Shown: positions 1,609-10,703 of the stretch, one piece after another
Numbering within the stretch: the stretch's first letter is position 1
How the letters are laid out: every line of letters starts with the position of its first letter
Assembly (NCBI RefSeq): GCF_003931915.1
Contig: NZ_RSAA01000010.1
Coordinates: forward strand, 62,001-126,000
From: Saccharopolyspora rhizosphaerae
GTDB taxonomy: Bacteria; Actinomycetota; Actinomycetes; Mycobacteriales; Pseudonocardiaceae
Length of the DNA: 64,000 nt
Direction: 5' to 3'
Position numbers and translations under genes: made by a program
Notes under the pieces: generated by a model
Databases searched by the model: none
What the model saw: the letters and a program-made list of their open reading frames with translations, nothing else
Told to the model about the DNA's origin: nothing

Positions 1609-3195
1609 TCACCCAGCCCCGCTCGACCTCTCCACGGCTCGGTCCTCGTGCTGGCGCGCGGCCGAGACCAGCGCGACGGCGGGCTCGGTCCGCGGCGCCT
1701 CGAACAGCTGGTGAGGTGCCGCGGACTCGACGAGGCGGCCACCGTGCATCACGTGCACCTCGTCGGCGAGCGCGGCCACCGCCGTGAAGTCGTGGCTGAT
1801 CAGCACCGTGCTGGTGCCCCAGCGCGATCGGGCTGTGGCCAGCGCCCGGACCAGCTCGGACTGGTTGACCACGTCCAGCGACGAGGTGATCTCGTCGCAG
1901 ATGAGCACCGAGGGGCGGGCCAGCAACGCCCGGGCCAGCGCCGCGCGCTGGAGCTGGCCGCCGGAGAGCCCGGCAGGCCGCCGCCCGGTGCACGCCGGGT
2001 CGAGGCCGAGCGTGGCCAGCACCTCCTCGGCCTCGGATCGCGCTCGCGGTGCGGGAATCCCGCGCAGGAGTTCGGCGGTGCGGGCGACCTGCCGGACCAC
2101 CGGCGTGCGCGGGTCGAAGGTGGCGCGGGTGTCCTGGTGGACGTACTGCACGTGGCGGCGGTGCTCACGAGGTCGTCGACGCGCGGTCGGTGCCAGCGCG
2201 GTCTCGCCGAGCAGCACTCGTCCGGTGTGCGGGCGGGTCAGCCCGGCCACGCAGCGGGCCAACGTGGTCTTGCCCGCCCCGGAGCGTCCCACGATCGCCG
2301 CGCACCAGCCGGAGGGCACCGTCATGTCCACGTCGCTCAGCAGCACCGATCCGTCCCGTGCGCGGTGACCGAGGCCGTCGGCCCGCAGCACGGGTTCCGG
2401 CCTGACGGGCGGTGTTCCGGCCCGGGTGGTCAGGTCCGCCTGCGCTGCGAGGAGTTCTCGGGTGTGCTCGTGGACGGGGGTGCGCAGCGGGCGCGTTCCC
2501 TCCCCGTGCTCCACGGCGTGGCCGTCGTGCAGCACGAGCGCCTGGTGGGCCAGCTTCCGGGCCAGCGGCAGGTCGTGGGTGAGCAGCACCAATGCCGTTC
2601 CGCCGGCGGCCAGGGACGCCAGCACGTCGGCGGTGTCGGACGTGGTGATGGTGTCAGCGCCGGTGGTGGGTTCGTCGAGGACGATGACGCTCGGCCGGGT
2701 GATCAAGGCCTGTGCGAGCAGGAGTCGCTGCTGCTGTCCTCCCGAGAGCTGGTGCGGGAAGCGGCGCAGCAGTCCGGGTTCCGGATCCAACTGGGCCGAG
2801 ACCAGGGCGTGCCGGACCGCCTGCTCGCGTGCGGACCGGTCCGCGTGGCGCAGCGCCGCGAGTTCCCGCAGCACGGAGCCCGTGCGCCGCATCGGGTTGA
2901 GCGCGGCGGCTGGGTGCTGCGGCAGCACCGCGATGGTGCCCGCGCGGGCCCGCCGGCGTTGCGGCTCGCTGCACGTCAGCAGGTCGGTTCCCCGCAGCAC
3001 GACGCTCCCGGAAAGCGTGGTGCCGGGCGAGGATTCGCCCAGCAGCGCGCGTCCCAGGGTGGTCTTGCCGCTGCCCGAGCGGCCGAGGACGGCGAGCACC
3101 GACCCCGGTGCCAGGTCCAGGTCGATCCCGTCCAGCAGCTGGTGCTCGCCCGCGGTGGCGCGGAGCCCGCGAGTGCTCAGGACCGGTTCGCTCAC
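1609..3195 (-). CDS. Fused double ATPase of an Opp/Nik-type ABC importer
   Basis: This 528-residue protein carries two complete ABC ATPase domains, fusing the DppD- and DppF-like subunits. Domain 1 has Walker A GRSGSGKTT (38-46), signature LSGGQ (150-154) and Walker B IVLDEP (171-176). Domain 2 has GRSGAGKTT (303-311), LSGGQ (410-414) and LICDE (431-435). It would power import by the two permeases encoded directly upstream. The GTG start at 3195 overlaps the permease stop in a GTGA, so translation is probably coupled; an upstream in-frame ATG at 3342 lies inside the permease gene and is unlikely. Last gene of the B12-riboswitch operon. The family imports peptides, nickel or metal-metallophore complexes. 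Confidence 0.9.
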   Translation of the reverse strand: MSEPVLSTRGLRATAGEHQLLDGIDLDLAPGSVLAVLGRSGSGKTTLGRALLGESSPGTTLSGSVVLRGTDLLTCSEPQRRRARAGTIAVLPQHPAAALNPMRRTGSVLRELAALRHADRSAREQAVRHALVSAQLDPEPGLLRRFPHQLSGGQQQRLLLAQALITRPSVIVLDEPTTGADTITTSDTADVLASLAAGGTALVLLTHDLPLARKLAHQALVLHDGHAVEHGEGTRPLRTPVHEHTRELLAAQADLTTRAGTPPVRPEPVLRADGLGHRARDGSVLLSDVDMTVPSGWCAAIVGRSGAGKTTLARCVAGLTRPHTGRVLLGETALAPTARRRPREHRRHVQYVHQDTRATFDPRTPVVRQVARTAELLRGIPAPRARSEAEEVLATLGLDPACTGRRPAGLSGGQLQRAALARALLARPSVLICDEITSSLDVVNQSELVRALATARSRWGTSTVLISHDFTAVAALADEVHVMHGGRLVESAAPHQLFEAPRTEPAVALVSAARQHEDRAVERSSGAG

Positions 3196-3998
3196 GCCGT
3201 GCCTCCGCTTCGTCGCGCTGCCGTGCGGTCGACCACGAGGTTGGCGCCGGTGCACAGCGCGACCAGCAGCAACGTCGGCACGACCACGGCCGGCGGTTGC
3301 AGGAACAGCGCCTCGCGGTTGCGTTCCACCAGGACCGCCCAATCGCTGGCCGAGGCCGCCAGTCCCAGGCCGAGGAAGTTCGCCGAGGCCATCAGCTGCA
3401 GCACCAGCACCAACCGGCTACCCGCGTCCACCGCGACGGGCCCGAGGACCGCGCGTCCGGTGTGCACCAGGTGGGTCCGCCACCACGTCTCCCCTTGCAG
3501 GACCATGGTTTCCACGCTCGCGCGACATCCCGGCGCCAGCGCTGCGCTGCGCGCCAGCCGCACGACCGCGGGCAGCTGCAGCACAGCCACGGCCACCACC
3601 AGCGTGACCGCGCTGCTCCTCCCGGTCGCCGCGAGCACGAGCAGCACCAGCAACCCGGGCAGCGCGAGCAGCACGTCCAGCCCGTGCAGCAGCACCGCGT
3701 CCAGCCACCGCCGCGTCTGCGCGGCCATGAGCAGCGCGAGCGGGACACCCACCGCGTAGGCCAGGACCAGGGCCACGCCGGTGAGCACCACGACCGTGCG
3801 ACCACCCGTGAGCACCAGGGCGAGCACGTCCCGGCCGAGCACGTCGGTGCCCAGCGGGTGCTCCGCGTCCGGCGGCAGCAGCGGGCCGGCGTGCGAGCGG
3901 GTCGACCCGGCGACCAGCGGACCGACGAGGGCCAGCACCAAGGGCGTGGCGAGCAGGAGCCACCCCATCACCGCGCGCGCCGGGTTCACCGCCATCAC
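3192..3998 (-). CDS. Opp/Nik-type ABC importer permease (DppC-like)
   Basis: An inner-membrane permease of 268 residues, near the usual length for DppC/NikC. It has an N-terminal membrane segment, a periplasmic loop with HPLGTDVLGRDV (the conserved start of the DppC core), and about five further membrane spans containing a degenerate EAA loop that contacts the ATPase. The GTG at 3998 is preceded by AGGAGGTGCTGGC and overlaps the upstream permease stop by 4 bases; an ATG at 3995 is the alternative. Pairs with the DppB-like protein encoded immediately upstream to form the pore. Confidence 0.88.
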   Translation of the reverse strand: MMAVNPARAVMGWLLLATPLVLALVGPLVAGSTRSHAGPLLPPDAEHPLGTDVLGRDVLALVLTGGRTVVVLTGVALVLAYAVGVPLALLMAAQTRRWLDAVLLHGLDVLLALPGLLVLLVLAATGRSSAVTLVVAVAVLQLPAVVRLARSAALAPGCRASVETMVLQGETWWRTHLVHTGRAVLGPVAVDAGSRLVLVLQLMASANFLGLGLAASASDWAVLVERNREALFLQPPAVVVPTLLLVALCTGANLVVDRTAARRSGGTA

Positions 3999-4942
3999 GC
4001 CAGCACCTCCTGCTGCGGGACCAGCCGGCGTGCTGCGACATCGGCAGCGGTGTTGACCAGCACGGTCGTCACGACGAACACCAGCGCGTAACCCTGCACC
4101 ACGGGCAGGTCACGGGTCTTGACCGCGTCGACGAAGCCCGCTCCGACCCCGGTGAGCCCGAACAGGGCCTCCACCACGACCACACCGCCGAGCAGACCGT
4201 CCACGGTGCGGGCGAGCTGCTGCACCGCGGGCGCGAGCGCGTTCGGCAGCACGTGGCGCAGGAGCACGGAGCGTTCCGGCACTCCGAGCACCCGCAGGTG
4301 CGTCGCGTACCCGGCGTCGACGGCTCCCGCCACACCGACCCGGACCTGCCGCGCCAGCGCGCTCAGCTGCTTGCACACCAGCACGGTGACCGGCAGGACC
4401 AGCACCGCCGGCTGGTCGGCCAGCGAGAGGCCCGACAACCCCGCTGCTGTGGCGGGCAACCAGCCCAGGTGCAGCGCCAGCACGGCCACCAGCACCATGC
4501 CCAGGGCGAACTCCGGGATCGCGGTGAGCACGACGACGACCGCGTTCAGCGACCGGTCGGTGCGCGAACCCGGCCGCATCCCGCTCACCACACCGATCAC
4601 CGCGGACAGCGGGAGCACGAGCACGAGCACGAGCCCGGTGAGCACGGCGGTGCTCGACAGCTCCCGCCCGAGCTGCTCGGCCACCGGCTCGCCGGTCAGC
4701 AGCGACGTGCCGAGATCACCCCGGAGCAGGCCACCGGCCCAGTCGAGGAACCGATCGCCCCACGGCCGGTCCACGCCGAGCTGGGCGCGCAACGCCGCCA
4801 CCTGACCGTCGGAGGCGTCCTCGCCGAGCACGACCACCGCGGCATCACCCGGCAGCCACGAGGTCAGCGCGAACACCGCGGTCGCGACGACGACGACGTG
4901 CAGGAACCCGGTGGCCAGGCGCCGAACCGCGAACCGCGGCAT
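3995..4942 (-). CDS. Opp/Nik-type ABC importer permease (DppB-like)
   Basis: A 315-residue permease with the DppB layout: an N-terminal span (about 5-27), a GQ-type extracellular segment with LGVDRPWGDRFLDWAGGLL, and five later spans. It forms the transmembrane pore with the DppC-like partner. The ATG at 4942 shares one base with the TGA of the solute-binding protein gene, the one junction in this operon that is not a 4-bp overlap. DppB/NikB-type permeases act on peptides, nickel chelates or opine metallophores; sequence alone does not tell which. Confidence 0.88.
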   Translation of the reverse strand: MPRFAVRRLATGFLHVVVVATAVFALTSWLPGDAAVVVLGEDASDGQVAALRAQLGVDRPWGDRFLDWAGGLLRGDLGTSLLTGEPVAEQLGRELSSTAVLTGLVLVLVLPLSAVIGVVSGMRPGSRTDRSLNAVVVVLTAIPEFALGMVLVAVLALHLGWLPATAAGLSGLSLADQPAVLVLPVTVLVCKQLSALARQVRVGVAGAVDAGYATHLRVLGVPERSVLLRHVLPNALAPAVQQLARTVDGLLGGVVVVEALFGLTGVGAGFVDAVKTRDLPVVQGYALVFVVTTVLVNTAADVAARRLVPQQEVLA

Positions 4943-6483
4943 CAACCCAGCACGGCGCGGTCGAAACGCGCCCAGTCCAACGAGTTCGGCGTCGCGGCGC
5001 GCAGGCCGCGGACCTCGTCGGCAACGGCCACGTTCCAGTTGCTGAAGCCCCACACCAGCAGACCGCTGCGGTCGTGCGCGAGGTGTTGCGCCCGGGCGAG
5101 CAACCGAGCGCGCTCGGCTTCGTCCGGGGTGGCCAGCGCGGTGCTGAACAGCGCGTCGAACTCGGGTGACCGGAAGCGGGTGTAGTTGTTGCTCCCGCTT
5201 CCCGCGGTCATCCGCTGGCCGAGGAAGGTCGCCACCGGCAGCGCCGCGGTCCGGGTGTGGGCGGCCACGCCCTGCTCCTTGATGTCGGAGAAGTAGGTCT
5301 CCGACGGGCGGACCTGCGGCGTCGCCGTCACGCCGATGTCGCTGAGCTGCTCGGCGATCAGCGTCGCCGCGGGCTCGAAGTACGGATCGGCACCACTGGT
5401 CAGCAGGTCGAACCGCACGCCTTCGGCACCGGCGTCGCGCAGCAGCGACCGGGCCCGGTCCACGTCGCGCGACCTCGGCGCCACGTCCTGGGCGTAGTGG
5501 CGAAGTCCCTTGCCGAACAGGTCGTCACCCACGTCGCCCTTGCCGCTGAGCGCGACGTCGACGAGCGCTCGGCGGTCCACGCCCAGCAGCACCGCCTCCA
5601 GCACGCGAGGGTCGTGGAACGGCGCGCGGTCGACCTTGAACGCCACCGCCTGCATGGTGCTGCGCGGGGCGGAGAGCAGGTGAGCCCGGCCGTCGGCTTC
5701 GAGCCGCCGCGCCGCGTTGGCACCGATGTCGTGTGCGTAGTGCACCTGGCCGGACAGCAGCGCCGCCACGCGGGCCGGTTCTTCGTCGATCGGCACGAAC
5801 TCCAGTGCCGGCAGCGTCGGAGCGCCGGACCAGTGCCCGTCGAACCGGGCGAACACCGCGCTGCCGCCGGGCCGGAAGTCCGCGAAGCGGAACGGGCCCG
5901 ACCCCACCGGAGCGCGGAAGTCCGTGGTCCCCGCCGGGACGATCTCCGCCCCCGGCACGCCCCACGCGGACGGGAACTCGAAGTTCGGTGCGCGCAGGAC
6001 GATCTCGAGTTCGGAGGGTGAGCGAACTCTGCTCGCGGTGAAGTCCACGCCCGCGAACTGCTTGGCCGCGGCCGCGGAGGTGGCGGGGTCGGCGATCCGG
6101 CGGAAGCTGTAGAGCACGTCCTCGGCGGTGACCGGGCGGCCGTCGTGGAAACGGGCCTGGCGCAACCGGACCAGCCACCTCGTGCCGGTGCCGTCCGGTT
6201 CCCAGGACTCGGCCAACCGCGGCACGACGCTCATGTCGTCGCCGTAGGCCACCAGCGTGTCGAACAACGCCTTGGCCCGGGCCTGGTCGACGAACAGCGA
6301 GCCGGTGTGCGGGTCGAGGGTCTCCCGGGTCCCCGTCGTCGGGAACGCCGCGCGGAGGCGGTCACCCCCGCCCGCGGCACCGCCGCCCGCGCACCCTGCC
6401 GAGGCCAGGGCGGCCGCGGCTCCCACGGCCGTGGTCAGCAGGCGTCGGCGATTCCACAGAGGACCCTTGCCGGGTTCCGTCAT
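4942..6483 (-). CDS. Family 5 extracellular solute-binding lipoprotein
   Basis: This 513-residue protein captures the substrate for the adjoining permeases. The N-terminus has a twin-arginine-like NRRRLL (residues 11-16), a hydrophobic stretch and the lipobox ASAGC with the lipidated cysteine at 31, so it is probably exported folded and anchored outside the membrane. The rest matches the SBP_bac_5 fold (AESWEPDGTGTRWLVRLR, FHDGRPVTAEDV). DppA, NikA and CntA belong here; NikA and CntA bind metal chelates. The ATG overlaps the MFS exporter stop in ATGA. Its place behind a cobalamin riboswitch and an exporter points to a metal-chelate ligand, which is inference. Confidence 0.9.
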   Translation of the reverse strand: MTEPGKGPLWNRRRLLTTAVGAAAALASAGCAGGGAAGGGDRLRAAFPTTGTRETLDPHTGSLFVDQARAKALFDTLVAYGDDMSVVPRLAESWEPDGTGTRWLVRLRQARFHDGRPVTAEDVLYSFRRIADPATSAAAAKQFAGVDFTASRVRSPSELEIVLRAPNFEFPSAWGVPGAEIVPAGTTDFRAPVGSGPFRFADFRPGGSAVFARFDGHWSGAPTLPALEFVPIDEEPARVAALLSGQVHYAHDIGANAARRLEADGRAHLLSAPRSTMQAVAFKVDRAPFHDPRVLEAVLLGVDRRALVDVALSGKGDVGDDLFGKGLRHYAQDVAPRSRDVDRARSLLRDAGAEGVRFDLLTSGADPYFEPAATLIAEQLSDIGVTATPQVRPSETYFSDIKEQGVAAHTRTAALPVATFLGQRMTAGSGSNNYTRFRSPEFDALFSTALATPDEAERARLLARAQHLAHDRSGLLVWGFSNWNVAVADEVRGLRAATPNSLDWARFDRAVLG

Positions 6484-7757
6484 GCTCGTGCCCCTTCCTC
6501 GTCCGCGTGCTCCCGCCGGGTGAGCAACCCGCGTCGTTGCATGTGCGCCGTGCCGGCCGCTCCGGCCATCCCGACCGCGCACAGGGCGATCCACGGCAGC
6601 CACCGCACCTCCGGCGCCGGGAAGGCGTCCAGCAGTGCACCCACCAGCCAGCTCACGGCGGCCGCGACGAGGCTGGACACGAGGTAGTAGAAGCCGTAGT
6701 AGGTCCCGGCGAGCCGCTCGCTGCCCACGATCGGCAGCAGCTCCATCGCGAACGGGTTGGTGATCGCCTGCCCGACGGTGAACAGCGCGGTCGTCACGAC
6801 CACGGGCAGCATCACCAGCACGACCGAGCCCGGCGCGCCGGCACCGATCTCCCGGGTGGGCAACAGCGGGCCGCACACCACCAGCGGGACGAACGACAAC
6901 CCCATGCAGGCGAGCCCGATCGCCGCCGACCGTCCCGACGACCAGCGGGCACGGCACCAGTTCGTGATCCGCAGCTGGCCGAACACGCCGATCACCGTGG
7001 AGATCACGAAGACGACCGCGATCGCCCAGTACAGGCCGGACACGCGCTGCGCTTCCAGCGGGATCGTCAGGTAGAGCTGGTTGTAGAGGCCGAAGTAGGC
7101 CGACAGCGACAGCGTGAACGCCAGGAACCGGCGGTTGGTGACGACCTCCCGCCAGCTCCCGAGAACGCTGGTGCGCTGCGGTTCGACCTCCCGGTGCGGC
7201 AGCACGAGCAGTTGCGCGGTCGTCAGCACGGCGAACGCCAGGCACGCCACCAGCGCCACCACCTGGAAGTCGATCGCCAGCAGCAGCGCGCCGAGCAGCG
7301 GCCCCACCAGGGTGCCGGCGTGCGCGAAGACGTTGAACACCGAGAACGCCTCGGCCCGGTGCTCGCCCGCTTCGTGCACCAGGTAGGTCCGCACCGCGGG
7401 GTTGAACAGCGCACCGGCCAGTCCGGTCAGCACCACCGCCACGACCAGGCCCGGCAACGAGGTCAGGAACCCGAACAGGCCGAACGCCACCACCCGCAGC
7501 GCGCACCCGAGGATGATCATCGGTCGGCAGCCGATCCGGTCGGCGGCCGTCCCGCCGACCAGGAACATGCCCTGCTGGCTCAGGTTCCGGACCCCGAGCA
7601 CGAGTCCGACGACAGCGGCGCTGTAGCCGAGGTCGTGGCTCATGTAGGAGGCCAGGAACGGCAGCAACATGTAGAAGCCCACGTTGATCCCGAACTGGTT
7701 CACCACCAGCAGCCGCGCGGCCGGGGACAACCGCAGGAACGCACCCTTGCTCGTCAC
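6480..7757 (-). CDS. MFS transporter, probable metallophore exporter
   Basis: A 425-residue major facilitator protein with about twelve membrane spans and a loop 2-3 motif (GGTAADRIGCRP, about residues 66-77). The GTG start at 7757 forms a GTGA overlap with the preceding PLP-enzyme gene. MFS proteins in this context (compare CntE in staphylopine loci) export the newly made chelator before the ABC importer recovers it. That role is inferred from the operon; drug or amino-acid efflux cannot be excluded from sequence. Confidence 0.85.
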   Translation of the reverse strand: MTSKGAFLRLSPAARLLVVNQFGINVGFYMLLPFLASYMSHDLGYSAAVVGLVLGVRNLSQQGMFLVGGTAADRIGCRPMIILGCALRVVAFGLFGFLTSLPGLVVAVVLTGLAGALFNPAVRTYLVHEAGEHRAEAFSVFNVFAHAGTLVGPLLGALLLAIDFQVVALVACLAFAVLTTAQLLVLPHREVEPQRTSVLGSWREVVTNRRFLAFTLSLSAYFGLYNQLYLTIPLEAQRVSGLYWAIAVVFVISTVIGVFGQLRITNWCRARWSSGRSAAIGLACMGLSFVPLVVCGPLLPTREIGAGAPGSVVLVMLPVVVTTALFTVGQAITNPFAMELLPIVGSERLAGTYYGFYYLVSSLVAAAVSWLVGALLDAFPAPEVRWLPWIALCAVGMAGAAGTAHMQRRGLLTRREHADEEGARA

Positions 7758-8881
7758 AGCGCAGCGTCCTCCTCGCACACCGGGCAGTGCTGCTGCCCGG
7801 TCCTCCGTCGGCGGCAGGGGTCCGGCACGGTCGGGCACCGCGCCCACCGCTTCCCCGCCGTGGCTCGCACATCGTCCACAGTGTCCGGCTCGACGGCTCG
7901 GGCGGTCAGGCCGTGCCGGCGGCAGAACTCGTCGTCGTACACCGATTCCCAGTAGCGCTCCGGGCCGTCCGGGAAGACCGCCGCCACCCGGTCGGTCCCG
8001 AGCTCGCGCGCGCACCAGGCCGCGACCATCGCGGTGGCTCCGGTGCTCCAACCGCCGCTGACGAAGCTGCCCGCGGCCAAGCGCCGACAAGCGTCGGCCG
8101 CCTCCGCAGGGCCTACCCAGTGCACTTCGTCGAACTGCTCGTAGGCCACGTTGTCCGGGTGGAGGCTGCTGCCCAGGCCGCGCATCAGGCGGCGTCCGGG
8201 TTGGTGGCCGAACACGCTGGACCGCGGCGAATCCACACCGATGATCCGGACTTCCGGCCACCGTTCGCGCACCACCGAGGCGATCCCGGCGCTGTGGCCG
8301 CCGGTGCCCACGCTGCAGACCACGGCGTCGAGCGCGTCGAACTGCTCGGCGAGCTCACGGCCCATCTCCCGGTACCCCGCCGGGTTGTCCGGGTTGTTGT
8401 ACTGGTCCGGCCAGTACGCACCGGGGAGGTCGGCCAGCAGCTGGTGCACGCGCTCGAGCCGGGCTCGTTGCCACCCGCCGACCGGGTGCGGCTCGGAGAC
8501 GAGCTCCACGCGCGCTCCGTAGGCGCGCAACAACCTGCGGGTCATCTCGTCGAGCTCGCGGTCGGCGACGACGACCACGGGGTGCCCGAGCGCCGAACCG
8601 ACGAAAGCCAGTCCGACGGCGAGGGTTCCACTGCTGGACTCGACCACCGCTGCGCCGTCGCGCAGTTCGCCGCGTTCTCGCGCGCCTCTCAGCATCGACA
8701 GCGCCGCGCGGGCCTTCATGGTCGCGGGACCGACCGCTTCCAACTTCGCCCAGAAGCCCGGGTGCCGCCGCGGAAGCGGTGTGCTCACGCGCAGCACCGG
8801 CGTGTCACCGATGAGGTCGAGCAGCGACTCGCACCTGCGGCCGCCCGCGATGCCCGTGGGCCCCTGCTGCAGCGGGATCAC
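7754..8881 (-). CDS. PLP-dependent cysteine-synthase-family enzyme with Cys-rich tail
   Basis: A 375-residue fold-type II PLP enzyme related to O-acetylserine sulfhydrylase and SbnA. Visible elements are the Schiff-base lysine candidate K56 in GPATMKARAA, the substrate loop ESSSGT (81-86), the phosphate-binding loop GTGGHSAG (192-199) and the ring-contact GGWSTGA (276-282). Such enzymes make beta-substituted alanines from activated serine. The classic N-P-x-G-S-x-K is altered, so simple cysteine synthesis is doubtful. The C-terminus adds C349-X6-C356 and H365-C366-X2-C369, a possible metal site not needed for catalysis. GTG start overlaps the DUF364 gene by 4 bases. I infer a role in making a small amino-acid chelator. 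Confidence 0.85.
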   Translation of the reverse strand: MIPLQQGPTGIAGGRRCESLLDLIGDTPVLRVSTPLPRRHPGFWAKLEAVGPATMKARAALSMLRGARERGELRDGAAVVESSSGTLAVGLAFVGSALGHPVVVVADRELDEMTRRLLRAYGARVELVSEPHPVGGWQRARLERVHQLLADLPGAYWPDQYNNPDNPAGYREMGRELAEQFDALDAVVCSVGTGGHSAGIASVVRERWPEVRIIGVDSPRSSVFGHQPGRRLMRGLGSSLHPDNVAYEQFDEVHWVGPAEAADACRRLAAGSFVSGGWSTGATAMVAAWCARELGTDRVAAVFPDGPERYWESVYDDEFCRRHGLTARAVEPDTVDDVRATAGKRWARCPTVPDPCRRRRTGQQHCPVCEEDAAL

Positions 8882-9717
8882 GCCGGTCCTCCTCGGTAGA
8901 GGTGGATGGCGGTGTCCTCGCCGCTGAGCCAGAAGAACGGGTAGGGCTCGGCCGACAGCGCCGTGATCTCCTCGCCGAGCATCTCGCGGAAGACGGCACT
9001 TCCGGTCTGGGCGAACACCACCAGGGGCAGGTCCCGCGTTCGGCACACGTCGGCGATCTCGTCGAAGGTGCCGTTCCCCAGCACCATTCCCGACGCCAGC
9101 ACCGCGTCGGCGCCGTCGATCGCCTGCTGGTGATCGGTCAGGACGGTCTCGCCCCACTCGGTGAGGCCGCCTTTGAGGTCGCACGGCGCGCAACTGCTCC
9201 CGCGTTCGCGCAACGCCGCCAGCAGCGAGTTGACGACGCCGATCACCGCGACCCGACCTCCCGGGGGCACCAGCACGAGATCCGCCACGGCGCGCGCCCG
9301 CGCCAGCGACTTCTCCAACGACGTGCCCGCAGGCACCCGCACCGTGGACGAGCGCGGGTGGCCCGCGTGCGGCGCCGAGTCCGCCAGGTACGCGTCCAGC
9401 ACCGCCACGCGCACGGCGGCAGAGGGGTGTTCGAGCAGGGCCGCGACGTCGCCGCCGACGATCTCACGCACGAGCTCGTCGTCCAGCTCGCCGGGCTCCG
9501 CGGCGCAGGAACCCACCGCCGAACCCACTCGCACGCTCAAGACCGTGTTCACGTAGCCGTTGCGGCGGCTGGAGTGCCGTGCCGCTTGGACCGTCAGGAA
9601 GGCCACCGCGACCTGCGCACCGGTGAAGGAATCTTCCTTCGCACGGCGCAGTTCGGTGGTCACCCGTTCCAGCGCCGGGAGCGCGCGCTGGCGCGGGTGA
9701 GGGGAGCTCACAGGCAC
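8878..9717 (-). CDS. DUF4213/DUF364 putative heavy-metal chelation protein
   Basis: This protein of about 279 residues matches the two-domain family PF13938 plus PF04016: an N-terminal enolase-N-like part with NGYVNTVLSVRVGSAVG, then a Rossmann-like part with VLVPPGGRVAVIGVVNSLL and a late GSAVFREML. A crystal structure of the family led to the proposal of a role in heavy-metal chelation, but no reaction is established. First gene of the operon after the cobalamin riboswitch. The start is uncertain: GTG codons at 9729, 9717 and 9711 are in frame; GGAGAGAACT precedes 9717, so I chose it. The GTGA overlap with the PLP enzyme implies coupled translation and a joint function. Confidence 0.85.
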   Translation of the reverse strand: MPVSSPHPRQRALPALERVTTELRRAKEDSFTGAQVAVAFLTVQAARHSSRRNGYVNTVLSVRVGSAVGSCAAEPGELDDELVREIVGGDVAALLEHPSAAVRVAVLDAYLADSAPHAGHPRSSTVRVPAGTSLEKSLARARAVADLVLVPPGGRVAVIGVVNSLLAALRERGSSCAPCDLKGGLTEWGETVLTDHQQAIDGADAVLASGMVLGNGTFDEIADVCRTRDLPLVVFAQTGSAVFREMLGEEITALSAEPYPFFWLSGEDTAIHLYRGGPA

Positions 9718-9762
9718 AGTTCTCTCCACATCGCAAGGGGAATGACCGGGAACGAGTTCGGT

Positions 9763-9840
9763 CTACGCGATGTGGACTGCGGCACGGGGGGACTTCGACA
9801 GCGCCGTTCTCGGCACGCCGACACACTGATCCGGGTGCAC
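9763..9840 (-). CDS. 25-codon upstream ORF after the cobalamin riboswitch
   Basis: Reading the operon leader, a GTG at 9840 is preceded by an almost perfect ribosome site, GGAGGAGGTGACCG (spacing about 7), and opens 25 codons ending in TAG at 9763. The codons include HPDQC near the start. The ribosome site is much stronger than that of the first operon gene, which begins 34-46 bases later. A GC hairpin (9854-9858 with 9867-9871) abuts the ribosome site. uORFs behind B12 riboswitches have been reported in mycobacteria, so this may be the element the switch controls, with coupling to the downstream gene. Whether the peptide is made is unknown. Confidence 0.5.
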   Translation of the reverse strand: MHPDQCVGVPRTALSKSPRAAVHIA

Positions 9841-9881
9841 CGGTCACCTCCTCCGGGGCTCCGCGACCCCGTACGAATCGG

Positions 9882-10029
9882 CGTGACGACGCGAGTCTCC
9901 TGACTCGTGGATCGACGCCGCCTTCAGCCTTCCCACCGGGAACCCGGCAGTGGCTCGAACGAAGGCGGCTCCTCACTCACAGTGGCGGGACCGTGCCGGA
10001 TTTTCACCGGCTTCCTGCACGACGTCACG
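9882..10029 (-). promoter_or_regulatory. Cobalamin (adenosylcobalamin-type) riboswitch
   Basis: Read on the minus strand, this segment carries the conserved core of RF00174 in order: P1 strand CGTGACG (10029-10023), GCCGGTGAAAATCCGGC (10011-9995), CCCGCCACTGTGA (9989-9977), GCCACTG, GGTGGGAAGGC, the B12 box GAGTCAGGAGACTCG (9906-9892), and the closing CGTCACG (9888-9882). Bound cobalamin normally turns such operons off. It precedes the uORF and the DUF364-PLP enzyme-MFS-ABC operon, showing that the whole set responds to B12 status. The likely output is translational, since a uORF ribosome site rather than a U-run follows. Confidence 0.96.
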
Positions 10030-10043
10030 TGGTTGCGCGGATC

Positions 10044-10073
10044 AACATCGCAGCACGAGCCACAGCGGGTCAA
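10044..10073 (-). promoter_or_regulatory. Candidate promoter of the B12-controlled operon
   Basis: On the minus strand TTGACC (10073-10068) and GATGTT (10049-10044) are separated by 18 bases, fitting a housekeeping sigma promoter. Transcription would begin a few bases before the first helix of the riboswitch, as expected for a leader RNA. Only the -35 hexamer is a good match. Confidence 0.4.
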
Positions 10074-10145: not shown

Positions 10146-10703
10146 ATGCTCGACGGGCAGCATTGCGAGATCGGGAACTACCAGGTCAGGCGTGCCCGCC
10201 TGGACGACGTCGAGAAGGCCCGGACGCTGATGTTCGACACCTTCTACCGGGTCATGGGCCACGGGTACGTCCCCGCGTGGCACGCCGATGTGATCGATCT
10301 CGAGCGCACCTACTTCACCACCCCCGGCCAGGCGCTGTTCGTCGCGGCGCTCGACGACGAGGTGGTCGGGACCACCGCCGTCCGCGCCAGCGGACCCCAG
10401 AGCCCGCCGCACCCGGAGTGGATCGCCGAGCGGTACGGGAGACCCGGCACCGCACAGATCTTCCGCACCTACGTCAACGCCGGGCATCGGCGGAACGGCC
10501 TGGCACGCGCGCTCGTCAACCGGTCCTGCGAGTTCATCGGCGAGACCGGGTGCTACGACACGATCTACCTGCACACCAACCCGGCGGTCGAAGGCGCGGA
10601 GCCGTTCTGGCGCAGCGTGGCCGAGGAGGTCTACGACGCTCGAGCCGACGGCTCCTACAGCCCTGCGATCCACTTCGAGATCCCAGTCCCGCGAGCAGCC
10701 TGA
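10146..10703 (+). CDS. GNAT-family N-acetyltransferase
   Basis: A 185-residue GCN5-related acetyltransferase. The acetyl-CoA binding motif A is seen at RRNGLARALV (115-124), preceded by the beta-strand FRTYVNAGH. The start is set at 10146 because GGAGGTGAGG sits directly before this ATG; the open frame continues further upstream but without a comparable site. The gene diverges from the B12-riboswitch operon, with 428 bases between the two coding starts. It could acetylate an amine of the operon's product or act in unrelated detoxification; the riboswitch faces away from it, so it is not controlled by that RNA. Confidence 0.8.
   Translation: MLDGQHCEIGNYQVRRARLDDVEKARTLMFDTFYRVMGHGYVPAWHADVIDLERTYFTTPGQALFVAALDDEVVGTTAVRASGPQSPPHPEWIAERYGRPGTAQIFRTYVNAGHRRNGLARALVNRSCEFIGETGCYDTIYLHTNPAVEGAEPFWRSVAEEVYDARADGSYSPAIHFEIPVPRAA

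Follow-up and report, generated by a model that had tools for sequence, protein, structure and literature searches.

The window analysed here is a stretch of 64,000 nucleotides from Saccharopolyspora rhizosphaerae (contig NZ_RSAA01000010.1, positions 62,001 to 126,000), and the system in question is a run of seven genes, all on the (-) strand, that follows a cobalamin (B12) riboswitch. Judged from sequence comparison, this operon would make, export and recover a small aminocarboxylate chelator for cobalt when cobalamin is low, a reading to which we give a probability of about 0.6. Its parts differ in strength. Control of a metal-related unit by a B12 riboswitch is well supported by the comparison of genomes described below, and the combination of putative biosynthetic enzymes, an exporter and an importer is best read as belonging to a secreted chelator. 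Cobalt is the probable metal because of the regulator and of the regulon to which the operon belongs.

In order from the riboswitch, the operon encodes a DUF4213/DUF364 protein (8878..9729, with the likely start at 9717 or 9711), a pyridoxal phosphate-dependent enzyme of the cysteine-synthase fold with a predicted beta-substitution activity (PALP; 7754..8881, PF00291), a predicted exporter of the major facilitator superfamily (MFS; 6480..7757, PF07690 at 124.8 bits, best NCBIfam model the MdtH efflux protein at 149 of 469 bits) and a family 5 solute-binding lipoprotein (4942..6483, PF00496 at 220 bits, best NCBIfam model Opp5A/NikA). These are followed by two Opp/Nik-type permeases, B (3995..4942, PF00528, best NCBIfam model Opp2B 'nickel' at 203.8 of 350 bits) and C (3192..3998, PF00528, best NCBIfam model Opp2C 'nickel' at 116.8 of 300 bits), and by a fused double ATPase resembling NikD-NikE (1609..3195, two PF00005 stretches, best NCBIfam model nickel_nikE at 323 of 332.55 bits). 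Stop and start overlap by 1–4 nt at all six junctions. The aptamer (RF00174) lies at 9873..10047 on the same strand and is the window's single Rfam match over threshold; cmscan places it over the full length of the model (positions 1–189) at 98.9 bits (E 1.7e-23), the gathering threshold being 31.5 bits. Two-sided changes occur at 9 of its 44 pairs when 12 copies are compared. The riboswitch-headed run with overlapping stops and starts described in an earlier note on this DNA was thus confirmed, and its riboswitch withstood the search with Infernal.

The riboswitch probably acts through a short leader that is predicted to be translated. A conserved hairpin that runs into the strong ribosome site GGAGGAGG (9846..9872, (-) strand) is present in 15 of 15 leaders read, and this element is invariant in a 5-row alignment; from its position after the aptamer we take the hairpin to be P13-like. 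Behind GGAGGAGG, every one of the 15 leaders has a start codon and an in-frame stop, giving an open reading frame (ORF) of 19–38 codons, which in the window is a predicted frame of 25 codons plus stop beginning with GTG (9763..9840, (-) strand). Where a start could be assigned (13 leaders), DUF364 begins 39–77 nt past the leader stop, and its own ribosome site is weaker. A hairpin predicted in the window (9721..9775, (-) strand; arms CCACAUCGC / GCGAUGUGG) joins the end of the leader ORF to this second site, and in 7 of 13 leaders (the window, L079, L081, L082, L083, L085 and L087) the predicted fold pairs 3–4 bases of the site's GGAG within the leader ORF, with 2 bases so paired in another 2. 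The leader peptide showed no conservation among the leaders compared, and the evidence for the ORF therefore comes from where it lies, from its ribosome site and from the predicted pairing. The five further cobalamin riboswitches of this genome lack such an ORF, the ribosome site there directly preceding the gene. The likely mechanism, as far as predicted folds can describe it, is that the riboswitch gates translation of the leader ORF, which is coupled to expression of DUF364. With B12 bound, translation of the ORF starting beside the last hairpin would be blocked; when B12 is scarce the ORF would be translated, and the ribosome at its end would open the pairing that hides the DUF364 site and so turn the operon on.

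The unit and its riboswitch are inherited together. A DUF364 match was found in 45 of 150 relatives, and an Rfam scan of 20 loci besides the window detected RF00174 upstream of the 11 nearest (62–79% identity) and at none of the next nine (52–59% identity; L019–L027), all nine of which have an ATP-grasp gene upstream. A larger scan of a species-genome collection (84,980 genomes) returned 302 relatives, the best 80 of which were used together with a riboswitch model, R1, built from 12 riboswitches of the B12-type loci. DUF364, PALP and MFS genes occur without an ATP-grasp gene at 14 of these 80 loci, which also have no enolase genes, and exactly these 14 match R1. When the MFS protein served as query against an order-level draw of 397 genomes, 13 matches reached E 1e-120 or better, comprising ten of the B12 type, all with the riboswitch, one of the zinc type introduced below, and two others (L201 and L202). 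With each genome counted once and the window included, a cobalamin riboswitch precedes DUF364-PALP-MFS in 20 of 20 genomes examined, which is the outcome of the search for the same gene set behind B12 riboswitches that the earlier note had suggested.

The two remaining matches, L201 (genome G070) and L202 (genome G306), consist of an MFS gene and a family 5 importer with no DUF364 or PALP gene nearby. Each has an RF00174 match inside the locus, apparently heading other genes, and they are possible takers of a chelator made by others.

The first unit stops after the MFS gene in seven of the 20 genomes, and in these the binding-protein gene is found elsewhere together with the importer. The distant binding protein retains 65–70% identity in six of these genomes and 40% in the seventh (G010). 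All seven split importers have an RF00174 match of their own upstream, that of G010 scoring just 48.3 bits, and the distance from riboswitch to start is 84–356 nt at the five measured. A riboswitch within 1.5 kb was found at 0 of 7 loci of the next-best binding-protein paralogues in the same genomes, this control being the seven next-best matches that were given loci, out of many weaker ones. DUF364 and PALP stay with the MFS exporter, away from the importer, in 7 of 7 cases. Together with the count for the first units, the split importers support the control by B12 that the earlier note proposed, and it would extend to both halves, one serving synthesis and export, the other uptake. That the exporter remains beside the enzymes in the split genomes strengthens the secreted-chelator reading. 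The leaders of five of the seven split importers were read (all but L204 and L205, whose adjoining permeases also lie outside the genes read). Four of the five contain the element of hairpin, GGAGGAGG and ORF, here of 17–23 codons, and L171 is without it. At the split importer L170 the stop of the leader ORF overlaps the GTG that starts the binding-protein gene (GTGA).

The remaining 66 of the 80 loci have the same gene set in the same order, with an ATP-grasp ligase gene added before DUF364, and are here called the zinc type; a few are broken or ended by the contig (for example L123, L124, L126 and L156). An enolase-superfamily gene is present in 65 of the 66. For the enolase-superfamily protein of L055 the best model is the N-acetyl-D-Glu racemase DgcA, followed by L-Ala-D/L-Glu epimerase, and this locus, the sole one scanned for it, also has a methyltransferase gene before the binding-protein gene. 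R1, which derives from B12-type copies, matches 0 of the 66. A 15 bp Zur motif has been published for Streptomyces (PMC5472717). With at most 2 mismatches at its 11 fixed positions, it is present in 61 of 66 zinc-type loci versus 13 of 660 dinucleotide shuffles, and in only 1 of 15 B12-type leaders (the window and the 14), with 12 of 300 shuffles, which is no excess. A stricter 15-mer allowing at most 4 mismatches gave 62 of 66 zinc-type loci versus 9 of 1320 shuffles, with 4 of 198 for other stretches taken from these loci, and the nine Pseudonocardiaceae ATP-grasp loci had a Zur box in 8 of 9 cases at no more than 3 mismatches when the whole locus was searched. The metal role that the earlier note gave the unit is supported by these boxes on its nearest related clusters. 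Regulation thus separates by metal, Zur for one type and cobalamin for the other, which makes the strongest case for a metal-handling role of the shared core.

The two types occur together in genomes G001, G015, G066 and G072. The genome of the window has one DUF364 match only, so that the product would need no second such cluster. The simplest history would be a single metal-chelator core that came under zinc control in some lineages and under cobalt control in others. The zinc-type cluster is itself widespread (Streptomyces, Rhodococcus, Nonomuraea and others) and has the appearance of a zinc chelator pathway not yet described, for which the open-licence literature offered no published name.

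Other regulators were considered for the zinc-type clusters. Iron control was rejected, the IdeR/DmdR pattern being no commoner than in shuffles in the 66 upstream regions and found, at 4 mismatches or fewer, in none of the 24 loci scanned. The nickel (Nur) pattern showed a weak excess, 20 of 66 at 4 mismatches, where 10 of 66 shuffles had 4 or fewer. A further, third kind (15 loci, L062–L076) of cluster combines DUF364 with a more distant, SbnA-like PALP, and one of its members, L063, has FecCD and Peripla_BP_2 importer genes. The strict Zur pattern is found in 12 of these 15 loci versus 1 of 19 other loci, and the degenerate published motif in 8 of 15 at no more than 1 mismatch versus 3 of 19 others and 3 of 45 shuffles. 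These counts are only suggestive of Zur control, and no riboswitch was found in the seven of the 15 loci scanned with Rfam.

By score, motif and tree, the PALP belongs with neither SbnA nor CysK. Against the SbnA model TIGR03945 it scores 251 bits, under the cut-off of 349.95, and in the tree it forms its own clade apart from SbnA and from the single CysK row, on long branches; true SbnA identity is ruled out on these two grounds. The score was not trusted by itself, another PALP of the genome reaching 253 bits. The motifs MKAR and SGTL are specific to this PALP, and the SbnA positions Arg132 and Tyr152 are kept. Public labels on some homologues read S-sulfocysteine synthase CysK2. The genome of the window also encodes a separate full-score SbnA (395 bits) at L175 (G000:C7:23273-24175), and no SbnB over the cut-off was found genome-wide, the best match to TIGR03944 scoring 118 of 326.9 bits. 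The DUF364 protein of the window has both the Pfam score (PF04016) and the two-domain fold of its family, which has been tied to metal transport and chelation via genome context (PMC2954201).

From these features we propose that PALP would convert an activated serine, probably O-phosphoserine, into an aminoacrylate and then add an amino acid to it as nucleophile; the result would be a polycarboxylate of the 2,3-diaminopropionate type, on which DUF364 would perform a second step. EDDS and EDHA are aminopolycarboxylate chelators, and the product here is likely to be a polycarboxylate too. The MFS protein would export the chelator, which would bind Co2+, and the family 5 lipoprotein and the Nik/Opp-type importer would return the cobalt complex, supplying the corrin pathway of the cell itself.

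For all four importer proteins the best NCBIfam models are nickel types. The binding protein scores 112.5 bits against the NikA/Opp5A equivalog, under its cut-off of 600, and is over that of PF00496; its structure model has a mean predicted local distance difference test (pLDDT) score of 89.3. At ten of its positions the 11 B12-type proteins and the 17 zinc-type proteins compared carry different fixed residues, in a 29-row alignment from which row L171 was excluded. T76, E180 and H248 are found in 11 of 11 B12-type proteins, and K, Y and E in 16–17 of the 17 zinc-type proteins.

The genome (5.8 Mb in 34 contigs) contains six cobalamin riboswitches. Those outside the window head genes for a NicT/HoxN-type Co/Ni permease, a cobaltochelatase ChlID-type protein, cobN, metE and the class I nrdA, and the window operon is the one non-standard member of an otherwise standard B12 and cobalt regulon. 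A need for cobalt is to be expected since cobN is present. One CbiM gene was also found.

Several observations weigh against the proposal of a cobalt chelator controlled by B12. With a riboswitch-controlled Co/Ni permease and CbiM already in the genome, a second cobalt route needs scarcity to justify it, and cobalamin control could serve some purpose besides cobalt. No importer protein passes a metal-specific curated cut-off in NCBIfam. Family 5 proteins take many ligands, and the binding-protein model ties among peptide, opine and nickel binders, so that the fold names no ligand. The predicted fold leaves the GGAG site unpaired with the leader ORF in 4 of 13 leaders. The 20 genomes, from Saccharopolyspora, Prauserella, Saccharomonospora, Actinopolyspora and related actinomycetes, do not provide independent counts, and the riboswitch count covers these 20, homologues of further species being known as proteins only.

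The importer might instead take up cobalt already chelated by existing ligands, such as histidine or foreign chelators, with PALP and DUF364 acting inside the cell, for example in freeing or reusing the ligand, and with no chelator exported. We consider this unlikely. NikA-type proteins do bind metal complexes of small ligands, according to the titles of PDB entries, and L201 and L202 have the exporter and importer with neither enzyme nearby; the split units, however, keep DUF364-PALP beside the exporter and not the importer in all seven genomes, and the related zinc clusters have further enzyme genes. It is improbable that the product is a metallophore mainly for zinc or for several divalent metals, with cobalamin control reflecting a swap of B12-dependent for B12-independent enzymes that use zinc or another metal. 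Zur boxes on the related clusters agree with it, as does the control of metE in this genome by the same kind of riboswitch, MetE being a zinc enzyme. Need for zinc is normally read by Zur, though, and the B12 type shows no excess of the motif (1 of 15), whereas the absence of tailoring enzymes and the fixed differences at T76, E180 and H248 of the binding protein fit a change of cargo.

The riboswitch before metE could also point to supply of methionine or other amino acids when the B12-dependent methionine synthase fails, the operon then consisting of a peptide importer and a sulfur-amino-acid enzyme. The relation of PALP to cysteine synthase and the CysK2 labels would fit, yet PALP stands apart from the CysK row and SbnA in the tree, on long branches, and the MFS exporter, DUF364 and the Zur boxes of the related clusters are left unexplained; this is very unlikely. 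We give least credence to salvage of corrinoids or cobinamide in place of cobalt, which seems highly improbable. Cobalamin riboswitches commonly control corrinoid uptake, but the binding protein is of family 5 (PF00496) and not of the PF01497 type usual for B12, and corrinoid salvage accounts neither for the enzymes and the exporter nor for Zur boxes on the relatives. The fuller form of the preferred reading, which we hold to be about evenly balanced, is a dedicated cobalt metallophore with a two-enzyme core of PALP and DUF364, governed by a B12 riboswitch through a translated leader ORF. This core would stand under Zur (zinc) or B12 (cobalt) in different actinomycetes, with tailoring enzymes lost or gained and the binding protein changed.

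Divergent from the operon lies an accessory gene for a GNAT acetyltransferase (10146..10703, (+) strand, PF00583). Homologues scoring over 100 bits adjoin 4 of the 14 B12-type and 25 of the 66 zinc-type loci, and the enzyme could modify the chelator.

If true, the proposal would describe a dedicated microbial molecule for cobalt acquisition tied to B12 supply, and would assign a biochemical function both to DUF364 and to a clade of PALP enzymes that is common in Streptomyces. The zinc and cobalt versions would form a natural pair in which to study how the choice of metal is set by chelator and binding protein, and their paired regulation allows a direct test of the metal of either product. The open-licence literature yielded no account of a metallophore under a cobalamin riboswitch.

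Staphylopine (Cnt) and related opine metallophores combine small enzymes, an MFS exporter and an Opp/Nik-type importer in one unit, and the window operon groups its genes in the same way. The resemblance to the Cnt type proposed in the earlier note does not extend to membership. The CntA model (NF047575) gives 48.4 bits versus a cut-off of 800, the operon has no gene of CntL or CntM type, and a staphylopine-type locus was rejected on these features. A scan of the seven operon genes found no nicotianamine-synthase, opine-dehydrogenase or nonribosomal peptide synthetase family, as the earlier note had stated; in place of the nicotianamine-synthase-like and opine-dehydrogenase genes there is PALP-DUF364, and the unit is under riboswitch control. 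The note's further claim that the chemistry would be new is not supported in that form and is an inference.

With the SbnA/SbnB pathway the operon shares an enzyme of the cysteine-synthase fold and probably the O-phosphoserine substrate, and differs in a PALP that falls under the SbnA cut-off into its own clade, in the presence of DUF364 and in the lack of an SbnB over the cut-off in the genome. The structurally characterised DUF364 proteins Dhaf4260 (3l5o) and PH1506 (3npg) have 12–17% identity to that of the window, which is coupled to PALP, as it is in three kinds of cluster. The ppe2 riboswitch of Mycobacterium tuberculosis, a B12 riboswitch with an upstream ORF whose translation is essential for the downstream gene, resembles the present leader in the short ORF behind the aptamer; the two differ (PMC11260477) in a 4-nt overlap there as opposed to a 39–77 nt gap here in 13 leaders, often with predicted pairing and with the split importer L170 as the exception, and in the operon controlled. 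The zinc-type clusters come closest, with homologous DUF364, PALP, MFS, binding protein, permeases and double ATPase in a conserved order, and differ by at least two extra enzymes and by Zur boxes where the window has its cobalamin riboswitch.

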